Positions 2,566 through 17,000 of a stretch of 27,826 nt of DNA are shown here, one piece after another. The stretch's first letter is position 1. Each line of letters starts with the position of its first letter. A program made the translations under genes and the position numbers. Source of the DNA: a virus; the IMG/VR virus record IMGVR_UViG_3300030450_000059, positions 1-27,826 of that record. One strand, 5' to 3'. The notes beneath the pieces are model-generated. The model ran no database searches and was not told where the DNA came from. It saw only the letters and a program-made list of their open reading frames with translations.

Positions 2566-3096
2566 ATGACAATTAATAAAACATGGGCGATGCCTAATAA
2601 AAATACTTTTAAAATAAAACCTTTTGCCAATTTAATTGATAGATATAATTGTAAAAATTTATTTAATTATAAAGAAGATTTTATAAGTATTGATCCTTTT
2701 GCTAATGAAAATAAATTAGCTGTTATAACCAATGACCTAGACCATCAATACAATACTACTTACAATTTAGATGCCTTAGATTTTTTAAAGAAAATAAAAT
2801 CAAAATCAGTAGATTTAGTTTTGTATGATCCTCCATATAGCCCAAGACAAGTTGCAGAATGTTACAAGAAGTTGGGAAAAACAGTTAATATGGAAACAAC
2901 ACAATCTAGTTTTTGGGGAAACATGAAAAAAGAAATTGTAAGAATAACAAAAAAAGACAGCAAAGTTATTAGCTTTGGGTGGAACAGTAACGGAATTGGG
3001 AAAGAAAATGGGTTTGAGCAAATAGAAATTCTTTTAGTAGCTCATGGGGGAAATCATAATGATACAATTTGCGTAGTAGAAAACAAAATCAAGTAA
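2566..3096 (+). CDS. DPPY-motif adenine methyltransferase-like protein
   Basis: A 176-residue protein with DPPYSPRQ at about 88-95, the catalytic motif of amino-methyltransferases. It also has a characteristic N-terminal MPNKNTFKIKPF segment and the ETTQSSFWG and ISFGWNSNGIG segments. I recognise this as a compact phage family usually annotated as an adenine-specific methylase. A classical FxGxG AdoMet motif after DPPY is not visible. The conserved IDPFAN near residue 43 may supply that site ahead of DPPY, which would be a different motif order from the upstream methyltransferase. The annotated ATG is at 2566, but the second Met (2590, opening MPNKNTF) is an equally good start. The next gene is preceded by the first TCTATTATATA motif, so this is probably the last gene of the early operon. 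Confidence 0.65.
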   Translation: MTINKTWAMPNKNTFKIKPFANLIDRYNCKNLFNYKEDFISIDPFANENKLAVITNDLDHQYNTTYNLDALDFLKKIKSKSVDLVLYDPPYSPRQVAECYKKLGKTVNMETTQSSFWGNMKKEIVRITKKDSKVISFGWNSNGIGKENGFEQIEILLVAHGGNHNDTICVVENKIK

Positions 3097-3097
3097 G

Positions 3098-3113
3098 TTT
3101 CTATTATATAATA
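3098..3113 (+). promoter_or_regulatory. TCTATTATATA motif, copy 1 (candidate late promoter)
   Basis: TTTCTATTATATAATA lies in the gap between the methyltransferase-like gene and the small terminase gene. It is one of five exact intergenic copies of TCTATTATATA. Here it sits about 28 bp before the ATG at 3142, a comfortable promoter-to-start distance. It marks the switch from early genes to packaging and structural genes. Confidence 0.55.
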
Positions 3114-3118
3114 AAGAC

Positions 3119-3130
3119 TTGATTAATCAA
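3119..3130. promoter_or_regulatory. Perfect 12-bp palindrome, possible operator
   Basis: TTGATTAATCAA is its own reverse complement. It lies 5 bp after the end of late-motif copy 1 and 11 bp before the small terminase ATG. If copy 1 is a promoter, this palindrome would overlap the start of the transcript, where a dimeric repressor or activator could act. None of the other four motif copies has this palindrome next to it. Confidence 0.3.
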
Positions 3131-3141
3131 AATAATTCAAA

Positions 3142-3402
3142 ATGAACACACATGGGGGTAAAAGAGCAGGAGCAGGGCGTAAGGCTAAGGCAGAAGAACA
3201 AAAGTTAATAGAGAATCTAACACCAATGAATCCAATGGCTTTAGAATCACTTAAAAAAGGATTAGAGAAAAAAGAACAATGGGCGGTAAAATTATTCTTT
3301 GAGTATTTTTATGGGAAGCCACAACAAAGGGTAGATGTTACAACTAATGATGAAAGCCTAAACATGCCATTAATAAACTTTGTAGAAACTGAATCTGAGT
3401 AA
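3142..3402 (+). CDS. Terminase small subunit (putative)
   Basis: An 86-residue protein beginning with a GGKRAGAGRK motif (about 5-14), a basic Gly/Arg/Lys N-terminus common in small terminase and related DNA-recognition phage proteins. A helical segment (MALESLKKGLEKKEQWAVKL) and an FEYFYGKPQQ segment follow, the latter typical of small terminase C-termini. It would recognise phage DNA for packaging and regulate the large subunit. Its gene precedes the large terminase gene and is the first gene after late-motif copy 1. Its 3' end overlaps the deduced start of the large terminase, which lies in the +1 frame. Short for a small terminase but within the range seen in compact phages. Confidence 0.65.
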   Translation: MNTHGGKRAGAGRKAKAEEQKLIENLTPMNPMALESLKKGLEKKEQWAVKLFFEYFYGKPQQRVDVTTNDESLNMPLINFVETESE

Positions 3403-4591
3403 AAAATATAATCCACTATTTACATCTGATGCTAGATACTTTATCATAACAGGTGGTAGAGGATCAGGCAAATCATTTGCAGTAACTGTATTTTTAACTT
3501 TGCTAACTATGGCAGAGGGCATTAGGGTTTTGTTTACAAGATACACAATGGTATCAGCACATCTATCTATCATTCCTGAGTTTTTAGAAAAGATACAGCT
3601 ATTAGGATATGAGAATATATTTAGTGTAAACAAAGCAGAGGTAGTTAATCTTAAAAACAAATCAGATATATTATTTAGAGGTATTAAGACTTCAGCAGGA
3701 AACCAAACTGCAAGTTTGAAATCTTTACAAGGTATTAGTTGTTGGGTATTAGATGAAGCAGAAGAATTAATAGATGAAGATATATTTGATACTATTGATT
3801 TAAGTATTAGAGAGAAGAATATACAAAACAGAATAGTATTAATATTAAATCCTGTAACTAAAGAACATTGGATATATAATAGGTTTTTTCAAGACAAAGG
3901 TGTAGAAGCAGGTTTTAATGGCGTTAAAGACAATGTATGCTATATACACAGTACATACCTAGACAATAAAGAAAACCTATCTACGAGCTTCCTAGAACGT
4001 ATTAAGGCTATAAAGCACAGGAACTTTAAAAAGTACCAACATAAGATAATGGGTGGGTGGCTAGACAAAGCAGAGGGGGTCGTGTTTACCCATTGGAGTA
4101 TAGGTGAATTTAATCCTGATGGATTGCAGACATCATGTGGAATGGATTTTGGATTTAGTGTTGACCCTGATAGTTTAACAGAAGTTGCAATAGATAAAAG
4201 AAAGATGAAGATATATCTTAAAGAACATATCTATAAAAACGGATTAAAGAGCCATGACCTAGCAAAGTTAATATTAGACAAGGTTAACAATACGCTTATT
4301 ATTGCTGATTCAGCAGAACCAAGACTAATAGCAGATTTAAAACATTTAGGAGTAAACATAAAGCCTGTTAAAAAAGGAACTATTGAAAGTGGAATAACAA
4401 GGATGCAAGATTATGAATTAGTCATAACACCTGAATCAACTAATATAGCTAAGGAGTTAAATAATTACGCATATCAGGACAAAGGTTCTAAGCTATACAT
4501 AGACAATTACAATCATGCTATTGATGGGGCGAGATATGCTATTACATATCACTTAGACAATCCAAATGCAGGTAAGTATTTTGTGCAATAA
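3389..4591 (+). CDS. terL: Terminase large subunit (ATPase/nuclease), non-canonical start
   Basis: The DNA-packaging motor, about 400 residues if started at CTG 3389. Walker A GGRGSGKS lies at about 22-29 and Walker B VLDEAEEL at about 120-127. The C-terminal RNase-H-fold nuclease has acidic residues at D253 (MDFGFSVDPDS), D307 (IIADSAEP) and D379 (DGARYA). The first ATG, GTG or TTG in frame is TTG 3500, which would remove the Walker A motif and is therefore not the start. The frame is open back to a stop at 3383, and the only near-cognate starts are CTG 3389 and CTG 3395. CTG 3389 gives LNLSKKYNPLF, a sensible N-terminus. Alternatives are a +1 frameshift from the small terminase gene or a sequence error. 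The function is secure; the start is uncertain. Confidence 0.9.
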   Translation: MNLSKKYNPLFTSDARYFIITGGRGSGKSFAVTVFLTLLTMAEGIRVLFTRYTMVSAHLSIIPEFLEKIQLLGYENIFSVNKAEVVNLKNKSDILFRGIKTSAGNQTASLKSLQGISCWVLDEAEELIDEDIFDTIDLSIREKNIQNRIVLILNPVTKEHWIYNRFFQDKGVEAGFNGVKDNVCYIHSTYLDNKENLSTSFLERIKAIKHRNFKKYQHKIMGGWLDKAEGVVFTHWSIGEFNPDGLQTSCGMDFGFSVDPDSLTEVAIDKRKMKIYLKEHIYKNGLKSHDLAKLILDKVNNTLIIADSAEPRLIADLKHLGVNIKPVKKGTIESGITRMQDYELVITPESTNIAKELNNYAYQDKGSKLYIDNYNHAIDGARYAITYHLDNPNAGKYFVQ

Positions 4592-4595
4592 AAAA

Positions 4596-4617
4596 GGGGC
4601 GGCATTACGCCAACCCC
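4596..4617. other. GC-rich hairpin after the large terminase gene
   Basis: Just after the stop codon, GGGG-C-GGC pairs with GCC-AA-CCCC around an ATTAC loop, preceded by a run of A. On the + strand there is no U tract after the stem. On the - strand the hairpin is followed by six T, the geometry of an intrinsic terminator, but I see no - strand gene. It stands out in very AT-rich surroundings. It may slow read-through or protect the 3' end of the terminase mRNA before late-motif copy 2. Confidence 0.45.
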
Positions 4618-4673
4618 CTAACAAGATGAATGAAAACGTGGCAAATATAACAAAAAAAACTAAATATTAACTA

Positions 4674-4689
4674 TTTCTATTATATATTA
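4674..4689 (+). promoter_or_regulatory. TCTATTATATA motif, copy 2 (candidate late promoter)
   Basis: TTTCTATTATATATTA ends one base before the ATG of the tail chaperone gene (4691) and shares the 11-base core with four other intergenic sites. If it is a -10-type element, transcription would start at or just after the ATG, giving a leaderless or nearly leaderless message. This spacing weighs against a simple uniform promoter model. Confidence 0.5.
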
Positions 4690-4690
4690 G

Positions 4691-5290
4691 ATGAAGGTAC
4701 GAATTAAAAAACAAGGCAAAAAGCAGGAGTTTAATTTAATCAAGAGTTGGAAAGATGTTACGCTTGAAAAGTGGTTAAAGCTGATGGATTTTCAAGAGGG
4801 AAGAAAAAGCAAAGAAGCTAGCGAAACGATTGCAGCATTATCTGATATTCCTAAAACATTAATAAAGGAATTGACAATAAAAGATGTAGCAATTATATTA
4901 GGAGAGGTTGCAGAGTTACAAAGAAAGCAGGATAGTTCTTTAAAAAGGATTATAGAAGTAAAGGGTAAAAAGTATGGATTCCATCCTGACCTAGACCAAA
5001 TAAGTTTAGGGGAATATGCTGATTTGGAACACATGCTTACAAAAGACATGTATAAGTTCATGCCTGATATTATGGCTATTTTATACAGACCTGTTACAGA
5101 AGAGGGGGCTAATGGTGTTTATACGATAGAAGCGTATGATGGGAATATAAAGATAAGGGCGGAAGAGATGAAGAAAATGAGTGCGGAGCAAGTGCAATCA
5201 GCGCTGGTTTTTTTTTGGAATTTCGGAAGGGTATTGTCGATTCCTTTGGAGTTGTTTTTGATAAAAGCCACGAAGGAAATGAAGAGGTAA
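4691..5290 (+). CDS. Tail assembly chaperone, zero-frame product (gpG-like)
   Basis: A 199-residue soluble, mostly helical protein without membrane segments. The stretch with LGEYADLEHMLTKDMYKFMP (about 112-131) followed by AILYRPV and a YTIEAYDG strand is typical of unnamed tail chaperone-like phage proteins. The call rests mainly on architecture. Near its end the gene carries nine T at 5208-5216, a slippery U-UUU-UUU in the correct phase. The overlapping -1 frame (5215-5469) encodes a plausible C-terminal extension without its own good start. This is the lambda gpG/gpGT arrangement, in which frameshifting makes a small amount of longer chaperone needed for tail assembly around the tape measure. 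Unusually, it lies next to the terminase rather than directly before the tape measure gene, which starts at 12153. Confidence 0.6.
   Translation: MKVRIKKQGKKQEFNLIKSWKDVTLEKWLKLMDFQEGRKSKEASETIAALSDIPKTLIKELTIKDVAIILGEVAELQRKQDSSLKRIIEVKGKKYGFHPDLDQISLGEYADLEHMLTKDMYKFMPDIMAILYRPVTEEGANGVYTIEAYDGNIKIRAEEMKKMSAEQVQSALVFFWNFGRVLSIPLELFLIKATKEMKR
5209..5215 (+). promoter_or_regulatory. Programmed -1 ribosomal frameshift site (U UUU UUU)
   Basis: In the zero frame the codons read GTT TTT TTT TGG, so T-TTT-TTT fits X-XXY-YYZ exactly in phase at 5209-5215. Slipping back one base moves ribosomes into the frame that continues to 5469. Just downstream, GGAAT (from 5217) can pair with ATTCC across an 18-nt loop, but it is closer to the slip site than the usual 5-9 nt spacer. 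A nine-base homopolymer is also a possible site of sequencing or polymerase slippage. Confidence 0.65.
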
Positions 5291-5469
5291 TAGCAACAGA
5301 AAGCTTTGCAGAGAAGTGGAGTTGGTTTGGGGTTTTTTATAGACTTGCAGGGGGGCAGATAGTAAATTTAGAAACAATAACGAAATTAAATCTTTTAGAA
5401 GCTTTAACATGGTTAAGTTATGAAACAGATTTAGATTCACAAAATAGAGTAAAATATGGCAGTAACTAA
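5215..5469 (+). CDS. Frameshift extension of the tail assembly chaperone (gpT-like)
   Basis: This reading frame has no ATG at its beginning; its first possible start is a TTG inside the T run. It encodes about 84 residues, with EKWSWFGVFYRLAGG near the middle followed by an NLETITKLNLLEALTWLSYE segment. The 'W-x-x-x-x-R-L-A-x-G' followed by 'l..l..ea..wl.y' pattern resembles the T domain of chaperones from many phages. It would be translated as a fusion of about 259 residues after a -1 slip at 5209-5215. Its 3' end overlaps the next gene by 14 nt. An independent protein cannot be excluded, but start and context favour fusion. Confidence 0.65.
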   Translation: MEFRKGIVDSFGVVFDKSHEGNEEVIATESFAEKWSWFGVFYRLAGGQIVNLETITKLNLLEALTWLSYETDLDSQNRVKYGSN

Positions 5470-6004
5470 CAAGACATTTAATAACGTAATAGAAACTCTA
5501 GCAAGATTAGGGGAGTATCATGAGCAAATAGAAACTGTATCTGTTGGTGATATTTATGATGTGAATTTAGAAAAAAACGAATTATTTCCTTTGCTTCACA
5601 TAAATTATGTAAATGTATCAACAGGTGATGCCGAATTAGTTTATAATTTTCAAATCTTTATTATGGATTTAGTAAGTGAGAAAGACAACTGGCAAACCTA
5701 CAACGCAAAAGGATTGACAAAGCTAATAGACAATAAAAACAACGAACAACAAGTTTATAACCAAACATTAGAAATAGCAACAGATATAATAGGAATGCTA
5801 AGACATAGTACAAGACAATCATTAGCAGGTGTTGATGATATTAATGCGCCTATTTATTTTACTCAAGACCAATTCACAATAGAGCCATTTAGTGAAAGAT
5901 TTGATAACATGCTATGTGGTCAGGTATTTCAATTAGGAGTTAAGGTAATGAATGACTTTGACACTTGTACAATACCTGTAACTAATTTAGGTGCTGGCTA
6001 CTAA
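5456..6004 (+). CDS. Tail terminator / tail completion-like protein (putative)
   Basis: A 182-residue protein. The middle contains ELFPLLHINYVNVSTGDAEL and then YNFQIFIMDLVSEKDNW, after which comes a helix (QVYNQTLEIATDIIGMLRH) and an acidic C-terminus. The 'fPLl...n......L.YnF.i.imD' pattern followed by a helix is seen in unnamed proteins of Bacteroidetes phages and resembles the alpha/beta fold of tail terminators, which cap the tail tube and join it to the head. This is a contextual inference. The ATG at 5456 is preceded by an A-rich leader and lies inside the end of the chaperone extension. Confidence 0.4.
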   Translation: MAVTNKTFNNVIETLARLGEYHEQIETVSVGDIYDVNLEKNELFPLLHINYVNVSTGDAELVYNFQIFIMDLVSEKDNWQTYNAKGLTKLIDNKNNEQQVYNQTLEIATDIIGMLRHSTRQSLAGVDDINAPIYFTQDQFTIEPFSERFDNMLCGQVFQLGVKVMNDFDTCTIPVTNLGAGY

Positions 6005-6072
6005 TGTTTAAATTTAGAATATGGAAAATAGAAATACAATTAATACCACCAAAGATAACAATTAAAATATAA
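6004..6072 (+). CDS. Possible 22-residue micro-ORF
   Basis: An ATG overlapping the previous stop by one base (TAATG) opens a 22-codon frame beginning MFKFRIWKIEIQL and ending IKI. It fills almost exactly the gap between two structural genes. The coupling geometry matches that of real gene junctions in this genome. The peptide is basic and beta-prone, with no recognisable family. It could be a real small protein or simply an AT-rich spacer that happens to stay open. Confidence 0.3.
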   Translation: MFKFRIWKIEIQLIPPKITIKI

Positions 6073-6077
6073 TAATT

Positions 6078-6527
6078 ATGGCAAATTTAGTAGTAACAGT
6101 ATCTGAAAGCGTAACCATTAATGGAGCTTTAAGAGGTTCAACAAATAGCTTAACAGTTACAGATATAACAGATACTTTTGAAAGGGTAATAACATGCCCT
6201 CATTCAGCAACAACAACAATAGCAACATTCTCCTCAAATGTATATGATAGTGCAGGAGCAATAGATAAAGAAAACGTAAGATATATAAGGGTGTCTAATT
6301 TATCAGCTACTCATGATATTGAAATAGGAGTTGCAGGAGCAGCTTCAAACTATTCAATGTTAATACCTGCTGGTAACTCTCACCTTATAGCTAGAGCAGA
6401 TGATGTTATGTTGGCAGAAGCAGATGCAGTTCCTACATATGGTTCATTAGCAGATATAGCTAAATTAGAAGTAAGACCAACAGCGACAACAGATGTAGAT
6501 GTAGAAATATTTGTAGCTAGTATATAA
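6078..6527 (+). CDS. Structural protein, beta-rich, unknown role
   Basis: A 149-residue, Thr/Ser/Val/Ala-rich protein with alternating hydrophobic strands and almost no charged helix, consistent with a beta-sandwich virion protein. It opens with LVVTVSESVTINGALRGST. The middle carries YIRVSNLSATHDIEIGVAG and the end carries PTATTDVDVEIFVAS. Similar proteins are common but unnamed in uncultured marine phages. Its position between a terminator-like and a gp10-like gene suggests a tail or neck component; tube or decoration roles are possible. The ATG has an AT-rich leader and the stop shares its last base with the next ATG. Confidence 0.5.
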   Translation: MANLVVTVSESVTINGALRGSTNSLTVTDITDTFERVITCPHSATTTIATFSSNVYDSAGAIDKENVRYIRVSNLSATHDIEIGVAGAASNYSMLIPAGNSHLIARADDVMLAEADAVPTYGSLADIAKLEVRPTATTDVDVEIFVASI

Positions 6528-7093
6528 TGAGCTTAAAAAACTTAGAGAATTATCTAAATAGCTTTGGCAAACAAGTGGTCAAAGATGCTAAAAAGAATTT
6601 ATCTAGTGCAGGTAAAGGGGGTGGGGATTTAGAGAAGTCTATTAAGTTTAGTGTAGTAAAAAAGGGTGATTTGCTAGACGTTCAATTTTCAATGGCAGAT
6701 TATGGTACGTTTGTAGATAAAGGAGTTAAAGGAGCTGGAGGCACAATTAAGTCAGGAAAGCATAAAGGAAGGTGGGGAGGTAGAAGGCACTACATAACGT
6801 GGGAGGGTAAAAGAAAAGATAGCCCATATAAATTTGGAAGTGGGAAATCTAGCGGAAGTATATATAAAGGGATAGGGTCTTTTATTAGAAAAAAGGGATT
6901 ACAGCCAAGAAGTGAAGGAGGGCAATTTATGACCACAGCAGGATTAAAAATAGCAATAGTAAAAGTTCTATGGATAAAAGGTATTCATGGAATAAGTTTT
7001 TTCCAAAAGTCTTTAATGAGAGGGATGCAAGATTTTGCAGAAAATTATGGAAAGGCTTTAGGGGAGGATATTTTAGAAAGTATTAAACAATAA
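6527..7093 (+). CDS. HK97 gp10-like neck/tail completion protein (putative)
   Basis: A 188-residue basic protein. Its first third has the gp10-like layout: an N-terminal helix with KDAKKNLSSAGKGGGDLEKS, a strand pair ending in VQFSMADYGTFVDKGVKG (about 53-70), then a Gly/Lys/Arg-rich loop, and a C-terminal helix (FQKSLMRGMQDFAENYGKAL). The 'YG.fvdkGvkG' turn is the most diagnostic part. Such proteins sit at the head-tail joint or tail completion site. Its length is at the upper end for the family because of the long loop. TAATG overlap links it to the preceding gene. Confidence 0.5.
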   Translation: MSLKNLENYLNSFGKQVVKDAKKNLSSAGKGGGDLEKSIKFSVVKKGDLLDVQFSMADYGTFVDKGVKGAGGTIKSGKHKGRWGGRRHYITWEGKRKDSPYKFGSGKSSGSIYKGIGSFIRKKGLQPRSEGGQFMTTAGLKIAIVKVLWIKGIHGISFFQKSLMRGMQDFAENYGKALGEDILESIKQ

Positions 7094-7099
7094 AATAAT

Positions 7100-8530
7100 A
7101 TGTCAGTATCAAATTCAGTAATAGAGCAACAACCATTATATACTACTTTACCAGTAGGTCAAGATATTATATTTGTAATTTCAAATAATGATGCAGTTAC
7201 AAATCAAGCAAAAGTAAAATTTATAGTAGATATTCATGTTAGTAGTACAACACCACCTGATACTACAACTTTAAATGATTATGTAGGTACATACAAAACA
7301 ACACCAAACAATGCGGGGGTTGGAATGTTTGATTTGCGTAATGTTTTAGAAAATTATGTAGAAGCGGATAATATGGCTGCTGATGGTAGTAGTTATAAAA
7401 CAACAATAACAAGCCCACAGGAAAGGCATCCAATACATTTAATAGATAAGTATTCTATGAATAATAACTCAGCTAGGTTTATGGCTTTAGTCTTTGCAGT
7501 TGAATATTTAGGTGCAACAAATGCAGCAGGTGACCAAGATGATAATACAGTTCGTAGGCAGGTAGGAACAGAAGAAAATTCAGACCTTTTTAATTTATTT
7601 AATGGATATGTAAAACACACAGATGATTTAAAAATAGGAACTCCAGTAAATGATAATTTTGGTATTGATATATCTGAATTTGTTTTATCAGTACCAACAG
7701 ACAAATTTTTGACAAACGCGCCTTTAACACAATACGCAAATCTAGAAGATTACGGAACATTAAGCTTTTTAGCTGTAAATGACACTTTAGACCACATAGA
7801 CCTACAATATTATGATAGCGCAGGTTCTTTATTAAATACTGAATCAATAACAAGAAATTTAAGTAATGGAGCATACAACGCTTGGAGTGGTGAAATTAAT
7901 AAATACCTTTTGTTTTTTGGTTGCTTTCCTGCTAACTTACAAAACTGGAGTACAACATTTCAAGCTTTAGTAACAGCAGGTACAATACAGGGTGGAGAAA
8001 TACGTGTAGTTGGTAGAGATGTTTCTAATGTGGCGGTAACTAATTTTTACAAAATAAAACTAAACTGTCCTGAAAGTTTTGGATATGAGCAAATAAGGCT
8101 ATGCTGGATGAATCAATGGGGAGCTTGGGATTACTACACATTCACAAAAAAGTCAACTAGAACTATAACAACAAAAGGTACTACATATACGCAACTACCA
8201 GGAACTTGGAACTCATCTTTATATAGATTAGATTCTTATAAAGGCGGAAAAAAAGCATTAAGAAGAAATGCAACTGAACGTATTAGCATGAATACTGACT
8301 ATATAAAAGAGGATGAAAATGTGATGTTTGAAGAATTAATTAACAGTCCTGAAGTCTATTTATTAGAGGGCTATCAAACTGATGTTCCCTTTTCAGCTTT
8401 AAATAAATACGTTACACCTGTAACTTTAAGCAGTTCATCATTTACTAGAAAAACAGTAGCTAATGATAAACTAATACAATATTCTTTTGATGTTGAAAAG
8501 ACTAAAATGCTAAGAACACAATCTGTATAA
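7100..8530 (+). CDS. Large tail-associated structural protein
   Basis: A 476-residue protein. Residues 1-110 form a beta-rich domain opening with SVIEQQPLYTTLPVGQDIIF. A long acidic/polar middle follows, then an aromatic segment with QIRLCWMNQWGAWDYYTFTK (about 331-350), and a C-terminal basic part with KKALRRNATERIS. The 'CW.NqwGg.DyytF' segment recurs in large unnamed virion proteins of Bacteroidetes phages. There is no signal peptide or membrane segment. From its position before the hub-like 921-residue protein and the fibre it is probably a distal tail, tail-tip or baseplate component. I cannot assign an exact role. Confidence 0.5.
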   Translation: MSVSNSVIEQQPLYTTLPVGQDIIFVISNNDAVTNQAKVKFIVDIHVSSTTPPDTTTLNDYVGTYKTTPNNAGVGMFDLRNVLENYVEADNMAADGSSYKTTITSPQERHPIHLIDKYSMNNNSARFMALVFAVEYLGATNAAGDQDDNTVRRQVGTEENSDLFNLFNGYVKHTDDLKIGTPVNDNFGIDISEFVLSVPTDKFLTNAPLTQYANLEDYGTLSFLAVNDTLDHIDLQYYDSAGSLLNTESITRNLSNGAYNAWSGEINKYLLFFGCFPANLQNWSTTFQALVTAGTIQGGEIRVVGRDVSNVAVTNFYKIKLNCPESFGYEQIRLCWMNQWGAWDYYTFTKKSTRTITTKGTTYTQLPGTWNSSLYRLDSYKGGKKALRRNATERISMNTDYIKEDENVMFEELINSPEVYLLEGYQTDVPFSALNKYVTPVTLSSSSFTRKTVANDKLIQYSFDVEKTKMLRTQSV

Positions 8531-11295
8531 TGAATACACAACTAATATTATATCCACAGTCTTATAATGGGCAGTACAACACTACTACCAATACTTATAC
8601 AATAGGTTCTACTGAGTTTGTTGTTGATGGAATTAATTTTAATACTATAAATAGCGCACCTACTAATCAAATGGCTGCAATAGGCTATCCGCCCTCAATT
8701 ATTTCTGTTGCGCCACCCTCAATTATAAATTCATGGTATACGTTCAGATCACCTCTAACACCCCCACAACCATCTTACCCTATTGAAGCAGGAGGTACAT
8801 TAGCATTAAATATGCAAGGCGCTAATACTATGAGCGGAGTTTATCAAAGACTATCAGGCTTGACAATAGGACAAAATTATGATGTTGTTGTAAATGTCAC
8901 TTCTGTTACTAATGAGATTTTAGATATTAGAGTTTTAGATGGATTGTCACAAATTGCTTTTCAAATATCAGCAGCGCCAGTTACAGTAGGAACATACACA
9001 TGTACGTTTACTGCAACAGCAACTGACAATACAATCATTATATCTACTATTGGTATAGGAGGTTCTGGAAATATATTAATAGACAGTATATCAGTAGTAG
9101 AACAAGGAGCAGGAACAATAGTTACCTATCAGATGGAGGATGGGCAGGTAATTTGTGATTTATATGAAGATGAAAATATTCCATTAACATTAAGTGTTGA
9201 TGATTTTAAAAATGCAGCAGAGCAAGTTCAATCTTACTCAAAGGCTTTTAAGCTGCCAGGCACAAAAAAGAATAATTTAATATTTGACAATATATTTGAT
9301 GTTACAAGGTCAACAACTGGATTAGTGTTTAATCCATATGTTAAAACAAAAAGTATTTTAAAGCAGGATGGATTCATATTATTTGAGGGATATTTAAGAC
9401 TTATAGACATACAAGATAAAAATGGTGAGATTAGTTACAATGTTAATTTATATTCAGAGGTTGTTGCCTTAGCAGATATGTTAGGTGAAGCTACATTAGC
9501 TGATTTAGGTTTTGAAGAGTTAGAGCATGACTATGTTAAGTCTAACATTAAGAATAGTTGGAATACATCAGGAACAGGAATTACCTATACTAATTCTAAT
9601 GCATCAGGATTTAGAAAACCTAACAGCACAGTTAAATATCCATTTTGTGATTGGAACCACCAAATGATAATAGCTAATGGTTCTACAGGTTCAGCAGCTA
9701 CAATAGGTGACCCTGAGTTAACACAATTAGAACAAGCATTCAGGCCTTTTATACAAGCTAGATATTTAATAGATAGAATATTTTATCAATCAGGCTCACC
9801 ATTTAGTTATACGAGTGCTTTTTTTGATACTGATGAGTTTAAGGAATTATACATAGATTTTAATTGGGGTGAAGAGCCAACAGGAGCATCACCTGATAGA
9901 AACGATACCTTGTATAGAACAAGTGATTTATCAACTATACAATGGTTAAGTCAGAGTTTTGAAGCTGTACAACTACAAACTTTTGTAAGTGGTAATAATG
10001 CTTTGTGGGCAAACCACAGATTCACATCTGATGTTGCTAATTTAGAAGTGTCAGGGTCAGTTAGAATACAGGTGTCAAATACGGCTGCATCTTCTAGGGG
10101 TGGAGAATTGGGTTTTAGAAAGTGCAATCAAGGGGGGGCGGTAATTGAATATTTAGCTACGCAAAGTTACAATTTAGCGGCTAGTCCTTCATCAGCTTCT
10201 TTAAATGCTACATTTGATACTGTTTTAAATGCAGGGGAATATTTGGAATTAGTTGCAAAGCAAAATAATGCTGGCGCAACAGAGGTGCAGATTTCATTAA
10301 CACAAACATCCTATTTTAATGTTTCTTACAATAATCATTCAGCAACAGTAGAATCTTTATTAATAAAAGAACGTGGGGAATTGTCACAATGGGGATTAAT
10401 AAAAGGTATAATGACAATGTTCAACTTAGTATCAATTCCTGACAAATCAAACCCTAACAACATATTAATAGAACCTTATGAGGATGTGTTTATAAATAAT
10501 GCTAATAGTAAACAGGTAGATTGGACTAGCAAAATAGATGTTGAACAAGTTAAGCTAACACCGTTAACTGAATTAAATAGAAAAACTACTTTTAAATTTG
10601 TTGAAGATGATGATGACTATATGTTTAATGTTTACAAGCAGTCAGTACAGGGTCATTTATATGGTTCTAAATTATTTGATGCTTCATTATCAGGTAGTGG
10701 GCTGCCAACAATATTAACAGGAGAGGAAGAAATAATAGCGGAGCCTTTTGCTGCAACAGTACCCAAACCATTAATGACGCAATTTGCTGATTTTATAACA
10801 CCTGCTATTTATTCTTATAATGCTGATGATGGAACTTCTGAGGGCTTTGCAAATAGTCCTAGAATCATGTATAATAATGGTGTAAAGACTTTAACAAGTT
10901 GCACATACTTTATACCTGCTCAAAATACAGAAGCAGCAGAGCAAATGACCGATTTTTTACAGTTTAGTCATTTAACAGATATTCCAACAGTAACATCAAC
11001 TCCACCACAACCAACAGACACTAATGACTTTCATTTTGGTGATTGTCAATTAATTATACCTAACTCTAATGCAACAGTAAACAATCTATTTTATCTTTAT
11101 TGGTTGCCTTATTTAAATGAGTTATACAACCCTGATACAAGAACTATGTCATTGAAAGTTAATTTAACACCTGGCGACATGAACAGTTTTAATTTCTTTG
11201 ATACCGTATTTGTCAAAAACAGGGAATATAGAGTAAACAAAATAGATTATAAACCAGGTGATTTAGCAACCGTTGAATTTATACTTATAACATAA
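8530..11295 (+). CDS. Tail tip / hub-like protein with N-terminal carbohydrate-binding-like domain
   Basis: The largest protein, 921 residues. Residues about 60-195 look like a jelly-roll carbohydrate-binding module (LALNMQGANTMSGVYQRLSG, then YDVVVNVTSV and a VGTYTCTFTATATDN edge strand), ending before VEQGAG. A second part begins with PLTLSVDDFKNAAEQVQSYS and includes KAFKLPGTKKNN, NIFDVTRSTTGLVFNPYVKT and YLRLIDIQDKNGEISYNVNL, a signature shared by large tail proteins of Bacteroidetes phages. The C-terminal region is beta-rich with YRVNKIDYKPGDLATVEF at the end. It is likely the tail hub or tip that contacts the cell surface, with the N-terminal module as a glycan-binding addition. The start shares one base with the previous stop. 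Confidence 0.5.
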   Translation: MNTQLILYPQSYNGQYNTTTNTYTIGSTEFVVDGINFNTINSAPTNQMAAIGYPPSIISVAPPSIINSWYTFRSPLTPPQPSYPIEAGGTLALNMQGANTMSGVYQRLSGLTIGQNYDVVVNVTSVTNEILDIRVLDGLSQIAFQISAAPVTVGTYTCTFTATATDNTIIISTIGIGGSGNILIDSISVVEQGAGTIVTYQMEDGQVICDLYEDENIPLTLSVDDFKNAAEQVQSYSKAFKLPGTKKNNLIFDNIFDVTRSTTGLVFNPYVKTKSILKQDGFILFEGYLRLIDIQDKNGEISYNVNLYSEVVALADMLGEATLADLGFEELEHDYVKSNIKNSWNTSGTGITYTNSNASGFRKPNSTVKYPFCDWNHQMIIANGSTGSAATIGDPELTQLEQAFRPFIQARYLIDRIFYQSGSPFSYTSAFFDTDEFKELYIDFNWGEEPTGASPDRNDTLYRTSDLSTIQWLSQSFEAVQLQTFVSGNNALWANHRFTSDVANLEVSGSVRIQVSNTAASSRGGELGFRKCNQGGAVIEYLATQSYNLAASPSSASLNATFDTVLNAGEYLELVAKQNNAGATEVQISLTQTSYFNVSYNNHSATVESLLIKERGELSQWGLIKGIMTMFNLVSIPDKSNPNNILIEPYEDVFINNANSKQVDWTSKIDVEQVKLTPLTELNRKTTFKFVEDDDDYMFNVYKQSVQGHLYGSKLFDASLSGSGLPTILTGEEEIIAEPFAATVPKPLMTQFADFITPAIYSYNADDGTSEGFANSPRIMYNNGVKTLTSCTYFIPAQNTEAAEQMTDFLQFSHLTDIPTVTSTPPQPTDTNDFHFGDCQLIIPNSNATVNNLFYLYWLPYLNELYNPDTRTMSLKVNLTPGDMNSFNFFDTVFVKNREYRVNKIDYKPGDLATVEFILIT

Positions 11296-12146
11296 TGGCA
11301 TCAATACCTTACATATCAGGATTTTCAATAAAACCTGCAAAGATTAGCGGAACAGGAGTTGTAACATTTACAGATGGAACAAATGAGATAACACCAAATC
11401 AACGGCAATGTGAAGCATATGGATATACATATAACCCTACAACAGGGGTTTGTGAATCTTTTAAATATAGCTCTAATTTAAGTGTAAATCTAAACAACGA
11501 AAACAACAACATTCAAGGGTTTGGGAATGTAACAGGTGTAGGAACAAATAACACCTATGTAATGGGTGAGAATAATGAGGTTATTGACGTATCAAGAAAT
11601 AACATTTTAATAGGAAGCAGAAACAAGATTACCAAGCCAGTTAATAATACAGCAGTATTTGGAACATTAGGAGAAATAACAACATCTAATTCTCTTGTTA
11701 TTGGTGGTAATTCAACAGCAGATACGTTAGGAGAAAGGCAAAATACAACTATATTGTATGGAGGTCAAACAACTGATGGTGCTACAACAGAGCTGTATTT
11801 AAATAACACCACAGATAGTTATTTCCAACCTGCTATTAATAGTGTCTTTTATTTCCAATCTGAAATATTAGCGGTTAGGGTTGGAGGTTCATCAGCAGGG
11901 GGTGCTGTTGGTGATTATAAATCATGGGTAGAACGTGGTGTTGTAAAAAATGCAAATGGAACCCTATATATTAGGCGATCACAAACAGCTATTGTTTCAA
12001 CTGGAACAACTACAACTTGGGCGCCTGAAAATACAGTATCAGGCTCAGACTTTAAACTTACAGTAAATGGAATGCGAGGTATGACGCTTGAATGGGTTGC
12101 AACAATTAGGTTAACAGAATTAAGGACATCAGTAACATTAACATAA
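11295..12146 (+). CDS. Tail fibre / receptor-binding protein (putative)
   Basis: A 283-residue protein. After a short N-terminal part with two cysteines (QRQCEAYGYTYNPTTGVCES, about 36-55), residues 60-150 show short repeats rich in N-N and I/V-G pairs (NNIQGFGN, NTYVMGENNEV, NNILIGSRNKI, NTAVFGTLGEI, NSLVIGG), like the heads of trimeric autotransporters and phage fibre beta-helices. The C-terminal part is beta-rich and Thr-rich, plausible as a receptor-binding tip. It is placed between the hub-like protein and the tape measure. Trimerisation and receptor binding are inferred from repeat style only. A - strand open frame overlaps the end but is a shadow. Confidence 0.55.
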   Translation: MASIPYISGFSIKPAKISGTGVVTFTDGTNEITPNQRQCEAYGYTYNPTTGVCESFKYSSNLSVNLNNENNNIQGFGNVTGVGTNNTYVMGENNEVIDVSRNNILIGSRNKITKPVNNTAVFGTLGEITTSNSLVIGGNSTADTLGERQNTTILYGGQTTDGATTELYLNNTTDSYFQPAINSVFYFQSEILAVRVGGSSAGGAVGDYKSWVERGVVKNANGTLYIRRSQTAIVSTGTTTTWAPENTVSGSDFKLTVNGMRGMTLEWVATIRLTELRTSVTLT

Positions 12147-12152
12147 AAAGAT

Positions 12153-13790
12153 ATGGCAAAAGAAGTAATAGAAATGGAGGTAAAATCCAACGTTGGTAAA
12201 ATTACTAAAGACGTTGAGGGGTTAAAAAAAGAAAGCAAAAAAGCCGAAAAAGAAGTAATAGGTATAGGTGGTGCTTTTAACGTAGTAGGAAAAGCTATTA
12301 AGTCAGCAGGAATTGGTATTGTGGTTGCTCTAATGGCAAAGCTAATGGAGGTTTTTAGCAAGAATCAAAAGGTGGTAGATACATTTGAAACTACTATGAC
12401 TTCATTAAGTATTGCATTTAATGATTTGTTTGGTTTTTTAAGCGACAATGTGGGAAAGGTTACAGGGTTTTTTAAAGATTTATTTGAAAATCCAAAAGAA
12501 AATATTGTAGAGTTTGGAAAAGCTATAAAGGATAATCTTATAGAGCGATTTATGTCCTTATTAGATGTGTTTGGTCATTTAGGTACTGCCCTAAAAAACT
12601 TATTTGCGGGAGAATTTCAGGCTGCAATAGATAGTGTTAAAGATGCAGGGAAAGAATATGTAGATGTTTTAACAGGTGTAAATAATAGTGTAGATAGAGC
12701 AACAGATGTAGTTACAAAAGGAGTAGCAGCTATATCTGAATATACAAAAAGCACAATAGACCAAGCTAAGGCAATAACAGAAACAAACAAAGCTGCACAA
12801 TTAGCAGAGGTAGAATTTGCAAGATTAAACGCACAATATTTAAAAGATGCAGAGGTACAAAGGCAAATTAGAGATGATGAAACAAAAACCTTTGCAGAGA
12901 GAATAAAAGCTAATGAGGATTTAGGTAAGGTTTTAGAAAAGCAGCAAAATTTACAAAGGGCGCAAGTGCAAACACAAATAGATGCTGCACAAGCACAATT
13001 TGACATTAACGGAAGTATAGAAAATAGAATAGCTTTAGGGCAGGCACAAAACGCCATGTTAGAACTAGAAGAAACTATAACAGGGCAAATGTCAGAGCAA
13101 AAAACCAATCAGGTAGCTTTAGAAAAGGAACTTTTAGAAACGCAAAGAGAATTAAGGGCAGAAAGCCTAGAGGGGAATGAAAGAGAGTTAGAAGAGCTTA
13201 AAAATTCCTATGAGCAAAAAAAGGAAATGGCTAGAAAGTCAGGAGCTGATATTGCAGCTATCACAAAGATATACGAAAAGCAAAAAACAGAAATTCTAGG
13301 TAGAGAAGCACAAAAGCAAAAAGAGTTAGACAAAGCCAAATTAGATTTTGAAACAAGCATGGCACAGCAAGGGCTTCAGGTAATAAGTGATGCAGCAGGC
13401 GAAGGAACAGGAATAGCAAAGGCAGCCGCAATAGCACAGGCAACTATATCAGGTGTTCAAGGTGTTCAAAATGCCTTTACAGCAGCCAATGCGAATATAG
13501 GCGCAACAGCAGGTTCCTTTGGAACTTACCCTGTAACAATGGCAGCATTAGCTGGAACATTTGCCGCTTTTAACATTGCTAAAATAGCAAGTGGTGGTGG
13601 CGGCGGTTCTTCTCCTCCTCCTCCTCCTCCTCCTCCAGATGCAGAAATACCTGCACCACAAATGATGTCAGGAGCTTTTGAATTAGGTGGTGGATTAGCA
13701 CCAGAAGCTATGAAAGCGTTTGTTGTAACTGATGAAATGACTAATTCACAAAATCAATTAGCTAACATTAGAAGGCAGGCTACAATTTAA
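12153..13790 (+). CDS. Tail tape measure protein
   Basis: A 545-residue protein with tape-measure architecture: an N-terminal helix with repeated Lys (VKSNVGKITKDVEGLKKESK), a hydrophobic segment (SAGIGIVVALMAKLMEVFS, about 51-69), a long Ala/Gln/Glu coiled-coil region (about 190-400), and a hydrophobic small-residue C-terminal region (AKAAAIAQATISGVQGVQNA and TMAALAGTFAAFNIAKIAS). At about 0.15 nm per residue, the length predicts a tail near 80 nm, a short siphophage tail. A proline run of eight residues (CCT microsatellite) follows a Gly5 run near residue 482. The protein sets tail length and is ejected with DNA. The tail chaperone gene is about 7 kb upstream rather than adjacent. Confidence 0.8.
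   Translation: MAKEVIEMEVKSNVGKITKDVEGLKKESKKAEKEVIGIGGAFNVVGKAIKSAGIGIVVALMAKLMEVFSKNQKVVDTFETTMTSLSIAFNDLFGFLSDNVGKVTGFFKDLFENPKENIVEFGKAIKDNLIERFMSLLDVFGHLGTALKNLFAGEFQAAIDSVKDAGKEYVDVLTGVNNSVDRATDVVTKGVAAISEYTKSTIDQAKAITETNKAAQLAEVEFARLNAQYLKDAEVQRQIRDDETKTFAERIKANEDLGKVLEKQQNLQRAQVQTQIDAAQAQFDINGSIENRIALGQAQNAMLELEETITGQMSEQKTNQVALEKELLETQRELRAESLEGNERELEELKNSYEQKKEMARKSGADIAAITKIYEKQKTEILGREAQKQKELDKAKLDFETSMAQQGLQVISDAAGEGTGIAKAAAIAQATISGVQGVQNAFTAANANIGATAGSFGTYPVTMAALAGTFAAFNIAKIASGGGGGSSPPPPPPPPDAEIPAPQMMSGAFELGGGLAPEAMKAFVVTDEMTNSQNQLANIRRQATI
13614..13637 (+). repeat. CCT trinucleotide microsatellite in the tape measure gene
   Basis: Seven CCT codons followed by CCA encode eight consecutive prolines, directly after GGT/GGC codons for five glycines and two TCT serines. 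The repeat is in frame, so copy-number slippage would change protein length by whole prolines without breaking the gene. The proline run probably forms a stiff spacer near the C-terminal end of the tape measure. Confidence 0.85.
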
Positions 13791-13813
13791 AAATCAAATA
13801 ATTATTAATTAAA

Positions 13814-13826
13814 TCTATTATATAAT
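13814..13826 (+). promoter_or_regulatory. TCTATTATATA motif, copy 3 (candidate late promoter)
   Basis: TCTATTATATAAT immediately precedes the ATG of the XkdF-like protease gene (13827) in an otherwise plain AT-rich gap. It marks the passage from the tail module to the head module. As with copy 2, the motif abuts the start codon. Confidence 0.5.
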
Positions 13827-14549
13827 ATGCCATGTGAAGAATGTGAAAACGGAAAAGTAAAATGGGGAAAAACAGGAAGCTGTGAATATGATTCAATAGC
13901 TGAATGTGAAGCCGCAAACAAAGACTATTACGAAAAGACTACATCTATTGTAGAACTCGTTATTGATGAATCTAATGAATCTTTAGCAATTGATTGTATA
14001 AGTTTGGTGTCAGCACCTGCCATAGAGGAAAATATGGTTTATATGAGCAAAGCTAAAAATAATTTAACTTTAGCTAAAATAGATGAATCTAAGAGGGAGT
14101 TAATTTCTCCCGCCCTTATCCCTTCAAAGTCTATATATAGATATGATGCAGATACGGATTCTGACTATTATGTTTATTTTAGTAAAGATACGGTAAAAAA
14201 ATGTGCATATAGTTATTTAAAACATAACAATCATCATAAAGCAACCTATGAACATAAGGATAGAGTATCAGGTGTTTTAACGGTAGAATCATGGATTATT
14301 GAAGATCCTAAAAAAGATAAATCAGCTATTTATGGCTATAATCTTCCTAAAGGTACATGGATGGTAAAAATGTCTATAACCAATGAAGATCTTTGGAGTA
14401 AGATTAAAAGTGGAGAATTAAAGGGGCTTTCAATTGAGGGTTTTTTCACTTCAAAATATGAATCTATGCAAAAACAAGAGCCAACTGATGAAGAAATACT
14501 ATCAGCTTTAAATGAGATAATACAAGAAAATCAAACAAATTCAAAATAA
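13827..14549 (+). CDS. XkdF-like prohead serine protease (putative)
   Basis: A 240-residue protein. Residues 1-32 carry a Cys-rich element (CEECENGKVKWGKTGSCEYD), perhaps metal-binding. A protease-like domain follows: ELISPALIPSKSIYRYD (about 92-108), YVYFSKDTVKKCAYSYL, YEHKDR with H143, VESWIIED with S155, and LKGLSIEGFF with S202. The order 'sp..ip...iyR...y.v.fs...v......f........H.........eSwi.......Gy..p.GtWm..m.i.d..lw..ik.gel.GlSieg' matches the XkdF/prohead protease group. It would mature the capsid by trimming scaffold or capsid N-termini. Its place before an acidic scaffold candidate and the capsid gene supports this. I cannot say which serine is catalytic. Confidence 0.65.
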   Translation: MPCEECENGKVKWGKTGSCEYDSIAECEAANKDYYEKTTSIVELVIDESNESLAIDCISLVSAPAIEENMVYMSKAKNNLTLAKIDESKRELISPALIPSKSIYRYDADTDSDYYVYFSKDTVKKCAYSYLKHNNHHKATYEHKDRVSGVLTVESWIIEDPKKDKSAIYGYNLPKGTWMVKMSITNEDLWSKIKSGELKGLSIEGFFTSKYESMQKQEPTDEEILSALNEIIQENQTNSK

Positions 14550-14550
14550 A

Positions 14551-14561
14551 TCTATTATATA
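14551..14561 (+). promoter_or_regulatory. TCTATTATATA motif, copy 4 (candidate late promoter)
   Basis: TCTATTATATA starts one base after the stop codon of the protease gene and lies 22 bp before the ATG of the scaffold-like gene (14583). With copy 1 and copy 5, it has a spacing to the next start that suits an ordinary promoter with a short leader. Confidence 0.55.
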
Positions 14562-14582
14562 ACAGAACCTAAAACAATAATC

Positions 14583-15293
14583 ATGGATATTAAAGAACAA
14601 ATATTAGTAGCACTTGGCCTAAACAAAGCTGAGAAAGAAATTAAATTAGGATGGCAATCTAAGTCAGAAGATGGTGGAACAATTTTTGTTTCTACTGCTG
14701 AGGAGTTAGAAGCAGGCGTAGATGTGTCCGTTTTATTAGAAGACGGAACGACAATATTGGTTCCAATCGGAACTTATAAAACTGATACAGGCGTATCATT
14801 TAGAGTAGAAGAGGAGGGTGTTGTTTCAGAAGTTATTGAATCAGAAACAGAAGAGGAGGACACAGCAGATGATTTAGCAGAAGAAAAAGAAGAAATGGCA
14901 GAAGAAAAAGAAGATTATGATGAAGAGGCAGCAGTAGGTGACTGGGAAGGTATGGAGAAAAGAATCAAGAACCTAGAAGATGCCGTATCTGACCTTAAAA
15001 AACAAATAGGTGAAACAGGTGATGTAGAAGAAATGGCTGAAGAAACAGCAGAACCATCTACAAATCCTAAGTCTATTAAAACAGTAGAAACAATAGAATT
15101 TTCAGCAGAAGAGGAAATAGAAAATTTAAAAGCTGAAAACGAAAAGTTAAAAACGGAATTAGCAACAAGTCCTGCTGATGCTCCAATTAACACAAATAAA
15201 TTTAGTTCTGACAAAGCAAGACCTGTATTGTCAAAAAAAGAATACAAGAAGCTTTCTAAACAAGAAAGATTTTTATATAACTTAAATAAATAA
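14583..15293 (+). CDS. Acidic scaffold-like protein
   Basis: A 236-residue, strongly acidic protein. Residues 20-75 form a small beta domain (GGTIFVSTAEELEAGVDVSV and TILVPIGTYKTDTG). Residues 80-120 are almost purely Glu/Asp/Ala. Heptad-like helices follow at about 125-145 (MEKRIKNLEDAVSDLKKQIG) and 177-192 (EEIENLKAENEKLKTE), and the end is basic (KKEYKKLSKQERF). An acidic coiled coil with a basic C-terminal tail just before the capsid gene is what a scaffold for prohead assembly looks like; the basic tail would contact capsid protein. The N-terminal beta domain is unusual for a pure scaffold and might add a structural role. Confidence 0.55.
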   Translation: MDIKEQILVALGLNKAEKEIKLGWQSKSEDGGTIFVSTAEELEAGVDVSVLLEDGTTILVPIGTYKTDTGVSFRVEEEGVVSEVIESETEEEDTADDLAEEKEEMAEEKEDYDEEAAVGDWEGMEKRIKNLEDAVSDLKKQIGETGDVEEMAEETAEPSTNPKSIKTVETIEFSAEEEIENLKAENEKLKTELATSPADAPINTNKFSSDKARPVLSKKEYKKLSKQERFLYNLNK

Positions 15294-15317
15294 ATTAACA
15301 AATAAAAAACAAAAATT

Positions 15318-16250
15318 ATGGCATTTAATGTAACATCAAATTTTGCAGGAAAAGCAGCAGGGTTTTATATTTCTGCAGCTTTAAAAGAAGCAAAATCATT
15401 AGACTATATAACACAAATGAACAACGTGCGTTATAAATCTAATTTGCAATCTGTCGCTGGAGCATCTTTATTAAGGGACGCTACATGTGATTTTACAGAC
15501 CACGGAACACTTACAATGACCGAAAAGGTACTTGAAGTTAAGCCGTTACAAATTAATATCGACCTATGTAAGCAAAACCTAGTTAGCAGTTGGGAATCTT
15601 TGCAAATGTCAGGGCCTGGCGCTATGCCTCCTGCTTCATTTGAAGATTATGTAATTTCATACATGGGCGGAACTCTTGCAGAGGGTGTAGAGAACTCTAT
15701 ATGGAATGGAGTTACTGCAACGAATGGAGAATTTACAGGATTTTTAGGTGCAGCAGTTGGGTACCTTTTACCAGGTATTGATGGAACAGTTATCCAATCA
15801 ACTGCATCAGGTGCTTATTCAGCAGCTAACATTATAGCTAACTTACAAACTTTAACTACTGACATGGCTGCGAGTACTTCGGCTATTTTGGGGAAAGAAG
15901 ATTTGCATATATACATGAATAACAAAACTTACGCTTTCTACATTTCAGCAGTATCTACATTAGGTTATGTTAATGCTTACAACATGAACGGTGACTATGA
16001 GCCAGTATTTGAGGGGTACAAAATTGCAGTTTGCCCATCTATGCCAGACAACCAGTTAGTAGCAGCGCAAAAATCAAATTTATATTTTGGTGTAGATTTG
16101 GTTTCGGATTTTGGAGCAACAGGAACAGGGCCTAGAATAGCCCTAATGGATATGTCCTCACTTGATGGGTCAGATAATATTCGTTGTGTAGCACGTTTCT
16201 CAGCAGGTGTTCAAACAGGAGTAGGAGCTGACATTGTAAGACAATCATAA
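15318..16250 (+). CDS. Major capsid protein
   Basis: A 310-residue protein without signal peptide or membrane segments, encoded directly after protease and scaffold candidates and followed by a strong stem-loop, which is the usual setting of a highly expressed capsid gene. The composition (Ala, Gly, Ser, Asn) and the chain of strands with a helix (SFEDYVISYMGGTLAEGVEN) suit an HK97-type fold. The segment ILGKEDLHIYMNNKTYAFYI and the later YEPVFEGYKIAVCPSMPDN resemble the P-domain strands and loop of capsid proteins in Bacteroidetes phages ('...G.Kia.cpgmpd...v.a'). There is no obvious long N-terminal delta domain, in keeping with a separate scaffold. The ATG follows an A-rich leader. Confidence 0.7.
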   Translation: MAFNVTSNFAGKAAGFYISAALKEAKSLDYITQMNNVRYKSNLQSVAGASLLRDATCDFTDHGTLTMTEKVLEVKPLQINIDLCKQNLVSSWESLQMSGPGAMPPASFEDYVISYMGGTLAEGVENSIWNGVTATNGEFTGFLGAAVGYLLPGIDGTVIQSTASGAYSAANIIANLQTLTTDMAASTSAILGKEDLHIYMNNKTYAFYISAVSTLGYVNAYNMNGDYEPVFEGYKIAVCPSMPDNQLVAAQKSNLYFGVDLVSDFGATGTGPRIALMDMSSLDGSDNIRCVARFSAGVQTGVGADIVRQS

Positions 16251-16268
16251 TAAACTAAATTAACAGAT

Positions 16269-16295
16269 GCGAGGGCTTCGGCTCTCGCTTCTATA
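16269..16295 (+). terminator. UUCG-loop stem after the capsid gene
   Basis: GCGAGGGCTTCGGCTCTCGC folds into an 8-bp stem with one G-U pair and an extra-stable C(UUCG)G tetraloop, followed by TTCTATAACC. The T tract is weak, so this may be a partial terminator or a 3' barrier that stabilises the capsid message. It is one of the few GC-rich spots in the genome. Confidence 0.7.
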
Positions 16296-16316
16296 ACCTT
16301 TAAAACATAAAAAAAT

Positions 16317-16901
16317 ATGGCATGTACTAATTTAACTAAGGGTAGAGGTTTAGATTGTAATAGAATATCAGGAGGGATAAAATATGTTTATTTTGGTGTT
16401 TACGACCAATTTACAGCACCTATTGATGGAACAGGTATTGTTGTAGCTAGTGGAGAGATAACAGATATTGAAATGGGTGCAGGAACTGGCTTATATCGTT
16501 ACACAATGCCTTTGGGTGTTGCATCAGCTACGGATACTGTTGTAGGCTCAAGAGAAAATGGAACTATTTACTATACTCCAACAGTTGAGGTTATTTTCAA
16601 CAGATTGTCAAAAGAAGACCAACACGAAATTAAGCTTTTAGGAGCTACAAAAACTGTTGTATTTTGTCAATTAAACCAGCAATTAGCTAACGGACACGAT
16701 ATAATTATTGGAATGGGCGTTGTTAATGGAATGGAAATGAACGCAGGAACAGTTACAACAGGCGCAGCTTGGGGTGATAGAAATGGTTACAACTTAACAT
16801 TTGATGGCATGGAGGCAGAGCCTTTTGCTATGGTAGCTGACTATACTACAAATCCATTTGATAATGCAGCATTTACAAATGTATCTATAACTACATCATA
16901 A
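16317..16901 (+). CDS. Major tail tube-like protein (putative)
   Basis: A 194-residue protein starting MACTNLTKGRGLDCNRISGG, an N-terminus I associate with an abundant virion protein of Bacteroidetes phages. It contains TGLYRYTMPLGVAS (about 57-70), a YTPTVEVIFNRLSKEDQHEI strand-helix, DIIIGMGVVNGMEMNAG and GYNLTFDGMEAEPFAMVADY near the C-terminus. Alternating strands plus one helix are compatible with a tail tube fold, but a capsid decoration role cannot be excluded from the sequence. Its flanking by two stem-loops (16269 and 16936) makes it a near-monocistronic unit between the capsid gene and the downstream cluster, as expected for an abundant structural protein. Confidence 0.5.
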   Translation: MACTNLTKGRGLDCNRISGGIKYVYFGVYDQFTAPIDGTGIVVASGEITDIEMGAGTGLYRYTMPLGVASATDTVVGSRENGTIYYTPTVEVIFNRLSKEDQHEIKLLGATKTVVFCQLNQQLANGHDIIIGMGVVNGMEMNAGTVTTGAAWGDRNGYNLTFDGMEAEPFAMVADYTTNPFDNAAFTNVSITTS

Positions 16902-16935
16902 AACTTATCATTAGTTTTTATATATTCTTGATTAG

Positions 16936-16965
16936 GAGGGCTTTATGCCCTCTTTTTCTTTTATT
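16936..16965 (+). terminator. Rho-independent terminator
   Basis: GAGGGC-TTTAT-GCCCTC forms a perfect 6-bp stem followed immediately by TTTTTCTTTTATT. This is the clearest intrinsic terminator in the window. It closes the capsid/tail-tube transcription unit. Late-motif copy 5 begins about 20 bp after its T tract. Confidence 0.9.
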
Positions 16966-16984
16966 AGCAAATAAATAACAACTT

Positions 16985-17000
16985 TTTCTATTATATAGTA
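16985..17000 (+). promoter_or_regulatory. TCTATTATATA motif, copy 5 (candidate late promoter)
   Basis: TTTCTATTATATAGTA lies between the strong terminator at 16936-16965 and the next ATG at 17013. A new transcript must start here if the downstream genes are to be expressed well, which makes this copy the strongest argument for promoter function. Confidence 0.65.

Follow-up and report, generated by a model that had tools for sequence, protein, structure and literature searches.

The 11-mer TCTATTATATA occurs five times in the window, the 27,826-nucleotide stretch of marine viral DNA analyzed here, and is, judged from its flanks in related phages, only the -10 half of a two-part element. The sequence-only reading of this DNA had suggested a phage-specific late promoter, and that reading is now strongly supported by sequence evidence, since the element has a fixed -35/-10 layout, precedes the same five late genes throughout its relatives, follows a terminator at copy 5 and does not match the host consensus. 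We consider it highly probable that the element serves a flavobacterial siphophage group as its late promoter, with the phage's own ECF-like sigma factor as its most likely reader. The features are collected in Table 1.

Table 1. Positions of the predicted promoters and associated features in the window (TSS, transcription start site; orthologue counts are sites above the matrix threshold)
Feature	Position	Strand	Sequence elements	Predicted TSS	ATG	Relatives and other evidence
Predicted late promoter 1 (small terminase, TerS)	3081..3113	+	weak -35 AAACAAAA 3081-3088; -10 TCTATTATATA 3100-3110	A3113	3142	element also at TerS orthologues, 76/96
Predicted late promoter 2 (tail block, g4691)	4657..4689	+	-35 AAACTAAA 4657-4664; -10 4676-4686	A4689	4691 (2 nt on)	114/115 orthologues
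Predicted late promoter 3 (head protease)	13795..13827	+	-35 CAAATAAT 13795-13802; -10 13814-13824	A13827	13827 (TSS = A of ATG)	37/40 orthologues, 33 with ATG in the same place
Predicted late promoter 4 (scaffold-like gene and major capsid)	14532..14564	+	-35 CAAACAAA 14532-14539 (in protease gene); -10 14551-14561	A14564	14583	63/64 orthologues
Predicted late promoter 5 (GYTS-repeat structural gene and onward)	16968..17000	+	-35 CAAATAAA 16968-16975; -10 16987-16997	A17000	17013	61/64 orthologues
Intrinsic terminator directly upstream of promoter 5	16934..16954	+	8-pair stem and T tail			37/50 relatives
Palindrome in TerS leader, between promoter 1 and TerS ATG	3119..3130	+	TTGATTAATCAA			conserved
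Host-type -7 box before the two-gene operon that ends with the sigma gene	26867..26874	+	TAAATTTG, exactly 12 nt before ATG		26879
Likely phage sigma factor, 192 aa, regions 2 and 4, ECF-like; proposed reader	27228..27806	+				weak matches, model, co-occurrence, covariation
Second, partial copy of the sigma gene	2..442	+				contig-end overlap

Layout and gene specificity of the element

A pattern search of the whole window returned the five exact copies of the 11-mer, all on the plus strand; the minus strand held none, and a reversed control pattern gave no match. These are the copies that the sequence-only reading had listed as always intergenic and on the coding strand, and both properties were confirmed for all five. 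That reading had also called for a scan against a shuffled background, which placed the motif far above chance: order-3 Markov shuffles of the window contained a mean of 0.06 exact plus-strand copies and a maximum of 1, versus the 5 observed. The 11-mer is the most repeated in the window, tied with a CTC repeat. Because copy 4 begins 2 nt past the protease stop, the -35 half that belongs to it falls within the protease gene. Copies with one mismatch are present in the window on the minus strand and look like chance occurrences.

We then examined 80 related IMG/VR contigs (844 kb) found via the major capsid protein. The 11-mer occurs in them 119 times on the plus (coding) strand versus 3 times on the minus strand, with about 1.1 expected. 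A flank profile from 99 distinct aligned sites in these relatives contained a second conserved box, CAAATAAA, at a fixed spacing of 11 nt before the 11-mer, together with an AT-rich spacer bearing a T tract and a conserved T and A at offsets 12-13. The full element thus consists of an A-rich -35 box of the CAAATAAA type, 11 nt, TCTATTATATA and a conserved purine 13 nt in. A 36-position bipartite matrix, built without the window, found 186 plus-strand sites versus 1 minus-strand site in the relatives. It also recovered all five copies in the window; copy 1 has a weak -35 half and scored 10.4, versus 27 to 41 for the other four.

To test gene specificity, we collected the orthologues of 41 window genes in 240 loci and scored the 150 nt preceding each with this matrix. 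Sites above threshold were found at the five genes counted in Table 1, and none were found at the orthologues of the 36 other window genes (up to 134 orthologues each). The claim that the copies precede only late genes extends to the relatives, where the motif is conserved at the same five genes; "late" is here a label taken from gene content, not timing. The 20 TerS sites that fell below threshold kept the -10 core and had an altered -35 half or spacing. We also ran a DNA-only IMG/VR search, free of protein bias, for CAAATAAA-N11-TCTATTATATA. The first 80 contigs listed held 96 copies, and 79 of these 80 contigs encode homologues of window proteins; among the matches listed, 90 of the 96 copies stand directly upstream of a GYTS, protease or scaffold gene.

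Short AT-rich repeats can arise by chance, and a palindrome is also present in TerS leaders, so that one might see in the element a chance repeat or a repeated binding site for packaging, recombination or silencing. However, chance is ruled out by the shuffles and by the strand counts in the relatives (119 versus 3 and 186 versus 1), and the element occurs once per late unit start, on the coding strand only and at a conserved distance to the next gene. We find this explanation hardly credible.

Two smaller observations concern individual sites. The palindrome in the TerS leader at 3119-3130, which is found as TTGAWTAATCAA in 87 of 96 TerS leaders, is a possible operator or hairpin. Of the five promoters, that of the protease varies most, with an exact core in 16 of 37, and is perhaps tuned to be weaker.

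Promoter reading and predicted start sites

The sequence-only reading had remarked on a clear terminator ahead of copy 5. This terminator is conserved upstream of the GYTS site in 37 of 50 distinct relatives, versus none of 50 control stretches; for the four remaining promoters, the count in relatives was 0 to 1 each. Known promoter types were compared as well. The pattern TTTG-N17-23-TAnnTTTG had no match on the plus strand of the window, and the host TTTG/TAnnTTTG type gave 0 to 1 match at the five late genes in relatives. A host (Bacteroidota SigmaA) promoter at the late sites was rejected, since its frequency in the window does not exceed that expected by chance and late genes almost entirely lack it; the stated mismatch between the element and the Bacteroidetes TAnnTTTG/-33 TTG promoter was accordingly borne out in both. 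An Escherichia coli Sigma70 promoter (TTGACA-N16-18-TATAAT) was likewise rejected, with no plus-strand hit at copies 3, 4 and 5 and a region count below that of shuffles.

The purine at offset 13 persists where the ATG is far downstream (92% A and 8% G in TerS; 94% A and 6% G in scaffold) and the base before it is usually T or C (about 90% in TerS and 60% in scaffold). For these reasons, we read it as the putative start site. With this base as +1, the CTATTATA part would span -12 to -5, and the -7 box of Flavobacterium johnsoniae occupies -12 to -5 from the start site (PMC6847099). The Bacteroidota SigmaA promoter is thus similar in that its box starts at about -12 (PMC6847099), whereas its letters differ and the host type stands, in this phage, upstream of the sigma operon and not of the five late units.

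The predicted leaders in the window are 29 nt for copy 1, 2 nt for copy 2, 0 for copy 3, 19 nt for copy 4 and 13 nt for copy 5. In relatives, 33 of 37 protease promoters and 34 of 61 GYTS promoters have their predicted start right at the ATG, and the protease ATG appears genuine because the N terminus is conserved from residue 1 (MPCxxC). On the basis of the box-to-ATG distance and the conserved +1 purine, several late messages are predicted to be leaderless or nearly so. Of the two leaderless transcripts that had been suggested earlier, that of copy 3 stands as a prediction, and that of copy 2 would be only nearly leaderless. Cell messages in the phylum Bacteroidota mostly have leaders (PMC6847099), and leaderless late messages would be unusual for it because 87% of F. 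johnsoniae transcripts with a probable promoter have leaders of >10 nt (PMC6847099). If the leaderless starts hold, they allow leaderless translation to be tested in a phylum without Shine-Dalgarno signals.

Because the element abuts the ATG in the protease gene, g4691 and many GYTS genes, it might act on RNA, as a ribosome-loading or processing signal in the leader. We judge this very unlikely, given that the ATG is 23 to 57 nt from the motif start in TerS and scaffold, that the -35 half keeps a fixed spacing and lies inside the previous gene at copy 4, that the GYTS element sits right behind a terminator and that the element is absent from 36 other gene starts.

The phage sigma-like protein as candidate reader

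The 192-amino-acid protein is likely an ECF-like sigma factor, as its predicted structure indicates. By sequence, it has weak matches to sigma factors and regulators, including a weak phrog sigma match. Pfam gave no sigma match for the window protein, and no curated cutoff was reached; Sigma70_r4 was weakly matched by 28 of 44 family members (best E value, 7.5e-4). A tblastn search for sigma homologues in named phages found none. A single-sequence structure was poor (pLDDT of 45) and was replaced by an AF2 model from an alignment of 44 homologues, whose overall confidence is modest (pLDDT of 75 and pTM of 0.41). ECF sigma factors came first among the matches of this model (6dv9_F; E value, 2.6e-4). 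Model residues 1 to 74 fit region 2 of SigL (68 residues; rmsd, 2.0), residues 127 to 190 fit a sigma region 4 (63 residues; rmsd, 1.8), and residues 1 to 81 and 124 to 192 superpose on ECF domains with an rmsd of about 2; there is no sigma3. The linker (about residues 90 to 123) is variable, and because it is loose, whole-protein alignments have a high rmsd.

The protein resembles the ECF (group 4) sigma factors Mycobacterium tuberculosis SigL and E. coli SigmaE, its best structural matches, in having regions 2 and 4 and a linker but no region 3, and it differs from them in its low identity (10 to 23%) and in its long, variable linker. ECF promoters have an AAC-type -35 and a CGTC-type -10 element; the window promoter is AT-rich instead. 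The contig ends, 1-462 and 27365-27826, overlap by 462 nt with 92.9% identity, so the record is a near-complete genome of about 27.4 kb. The two ends seem to come from different strains, and the overlap accounts for the second, partial sigma gene.

The sigma gene and at least one exact 11-mer are found together in 36 of 42 records, and the 6 records without the sigma gene have no 11-mer; shared ancestry confounds this co-occurrence because these six are more distant relatives. A further comparison uses relatives in which the base at offset 1 (-12) is A rather than C. In C-type genomes, 129 of 129 sigma proteins carry Arg at residue 76; every A-type genome has Tyr or Asn there, with the exception of L120/L333, one contig in which Arg76 is kept, the promoter set is mixed and the TerS site has A. 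On a sigma tree built without the tested columns, Arg76 changed no fewer than two times, on branches with good support, and each time the base in the promoter shifted the same way; with only two independent pairs, a sign test cannot reach 0.05. Of 59 well-conserved sigma columns, only that of Arg76 is altered in both A-type lineages. The same pattern is seen in 2 of 522 conserved columns from eight control proteins, which corresponds to about 0.2 expected by chance in the sigma protein. Under a strict test, no conserved sigma column was altered in both A(-12) lineages until L120/L333 was set aside. Arg76 is at the end of the region 2 domain (model residues 1 to 81 fit SigR region 2), near the place at which region 2.4 contacts -12 in known sigma factors. 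We propose that Arg76 contacts the -12 base, and the covariation favors the phage sigma as the reader, supporting this role rather than proving it. In g26879 (26879-27235), the first gene of the sigma operon, Ala75 is changed to Met in both A(-12) lineages; its product may be a sigma partner, or the change may be due to chance.

A phage sigma-like protein had already been named as a possible reader from the sequence alone. That role gains support from the fold, from the co-occurrence (36 of 36 and 6 of 6) and from the residue-base covariation, short of proof. Alternatively, the reader of the late promoter could be a host sigma factor, or host polymerase aided by a phage activator, with some other role for the phage sigma-like protein. 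An own sigma factor is not universal among late phage systems and the sigma model is of medium confidence, which would fit such a reader. In contrast, the element is off the Bacteroidota consensus, sigma and motif are present or absent together in all 42 records, Arg76 tracks the -12 base and, in Nonlabens phage P12024L, another sigma goes with another box. A host reader is therefore improbable in our estimation.

In the mechanism that we propose, the ECF-like phage sigma would join host RNA polymerase, with region 4 binding the A-rich -35 box, region 2 binding the TCTATTATATA -10 element and Arg76 reading the C at -12. The five late units (terminase, tail block, protease, scaffold plus capsid, and GYTS block) would then fire together. 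Initiation would be at the conserved purine that lies 13 nt beyond the first base of the 11-mer, such that the protease message and, in relatives, most GYTS messages would begin at the AUG itself. The sigma operon would itself be turned on by a host-type TAnnTTTG promoter.

The sigma operon, related phage groups and known systems

TAnnTTTG is present at exactly -12 from the ATG of the operon formed by g26879 and the sigma gene in 102 of 110 sequences, with variable middle bases; its -33 half is weak, a trait shared with host promoters. We propose, following the F. johnsoniae rule, that this operon is driven by a host-type promoter that starts on the ATG. Host promoters are also likely in the early block near 23.2 kb. 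These features could form a two-step cascade, in which a host-type promoter is followed by a fast-diverging phage sigma, both steps use promoters fused to start codons, and the sigma operon and key late proteins are expressed from leaderless messages. We give this cascade an even chance of being correct.

P12024L (genus Inhavirus) has a TerL 62% identical to that of the window and a sigma-like gene in the same place, annotated as a Sigma70_r2 protein a few genes upstream of TerL. This protein, P12024L_35, passes the Pfam Sigma70_r2 cutoff. Its match to the N terminus of the window sigma has an E value of 2.6e-4 but a probability of only 42%, and the two differ greatly, being about 20% alike over 50 residues. 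In P12024L, CGTTA[AT]TA lies exactly 12 nt before the ATG of 6 of 47 forward genes, which are late genes, and at no other offset from -30 to -1 in these 47. Each of the six boxes is preceded by an A-rich AACAA-type box, as in the window group, whereas the -10 box is CGTTAWTA rather than CTATTATA. The two sigma types never co-occur in the loci examined, and each pairs with its own box. In a third phage group, the gene that follows TerL carries [CT]GTTTATA at -12. Counting words de novo within individual P12024L relatives proved too noisy and was abandoned. As part of the cascade, sigma and promoter may change together between lineages, with CTATTATA in the window group, CGTTAWTA in the P12024 group and possibly CGTTTATA in a third; this belongs to the same reading and shares its even odds.

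A phage sigma factor with its late promoter is a known kind of system. Phage-encoded sigma factors with their own promoters include T4 gp55 and, in Bacillus phage SPO1, gp28 and gp33/gp34. As in these phages, a sigma-type phage protein is proposed here to steer the host polymerase toward phage promoters that serve later genes. The window phage differs in that its host is most likely a flavobacterium, its sigma is small, two-domain and ECF-like, and its promoter sequence and layout are unlike TATAAATA (T4 late) and the SPO1 middle promoters. The openly accessible literature (subscription papers were outside the search) yielded no account of this motif or of any late promoter from a flavophage; in that literature, the two-part sequence, the start codon fusion and the divergence between phage groups appear undescribed. 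Marine Bacteroidota phages are abundant, and we found no description of their late-gene timing in the same literature. With P12024L as a cultured phage for testing, the present analysis provides a specific, conserved late promoter together with a candidate reader whose proposed contact residue is named. It also offers a small sigma-promoter pair off the host consensus, with natural covariation for the study of -10 recognition.

Further observations concern TerL and the host. One close relative, L246 (PBGL02000003.1; TerL, 90%), is binned in a MAG titled Euryarchaeota. An archaeal host was rejected, and the bin probably holds a misbinned flavophage, because TerL is closest to those of Nonlabens and Riemerella phages. 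The TerL frame of the window (3383-3410 and 3500-4591) opens upstream of 3500, includes the Walker A sequence GGRGSGKSF and has no ATG, GTG or TTG start. Codon 3395 is CTG, CTT or CTA in relatives, and TerL may start at CTG 3389 or be reached via a frameshift from TerS.
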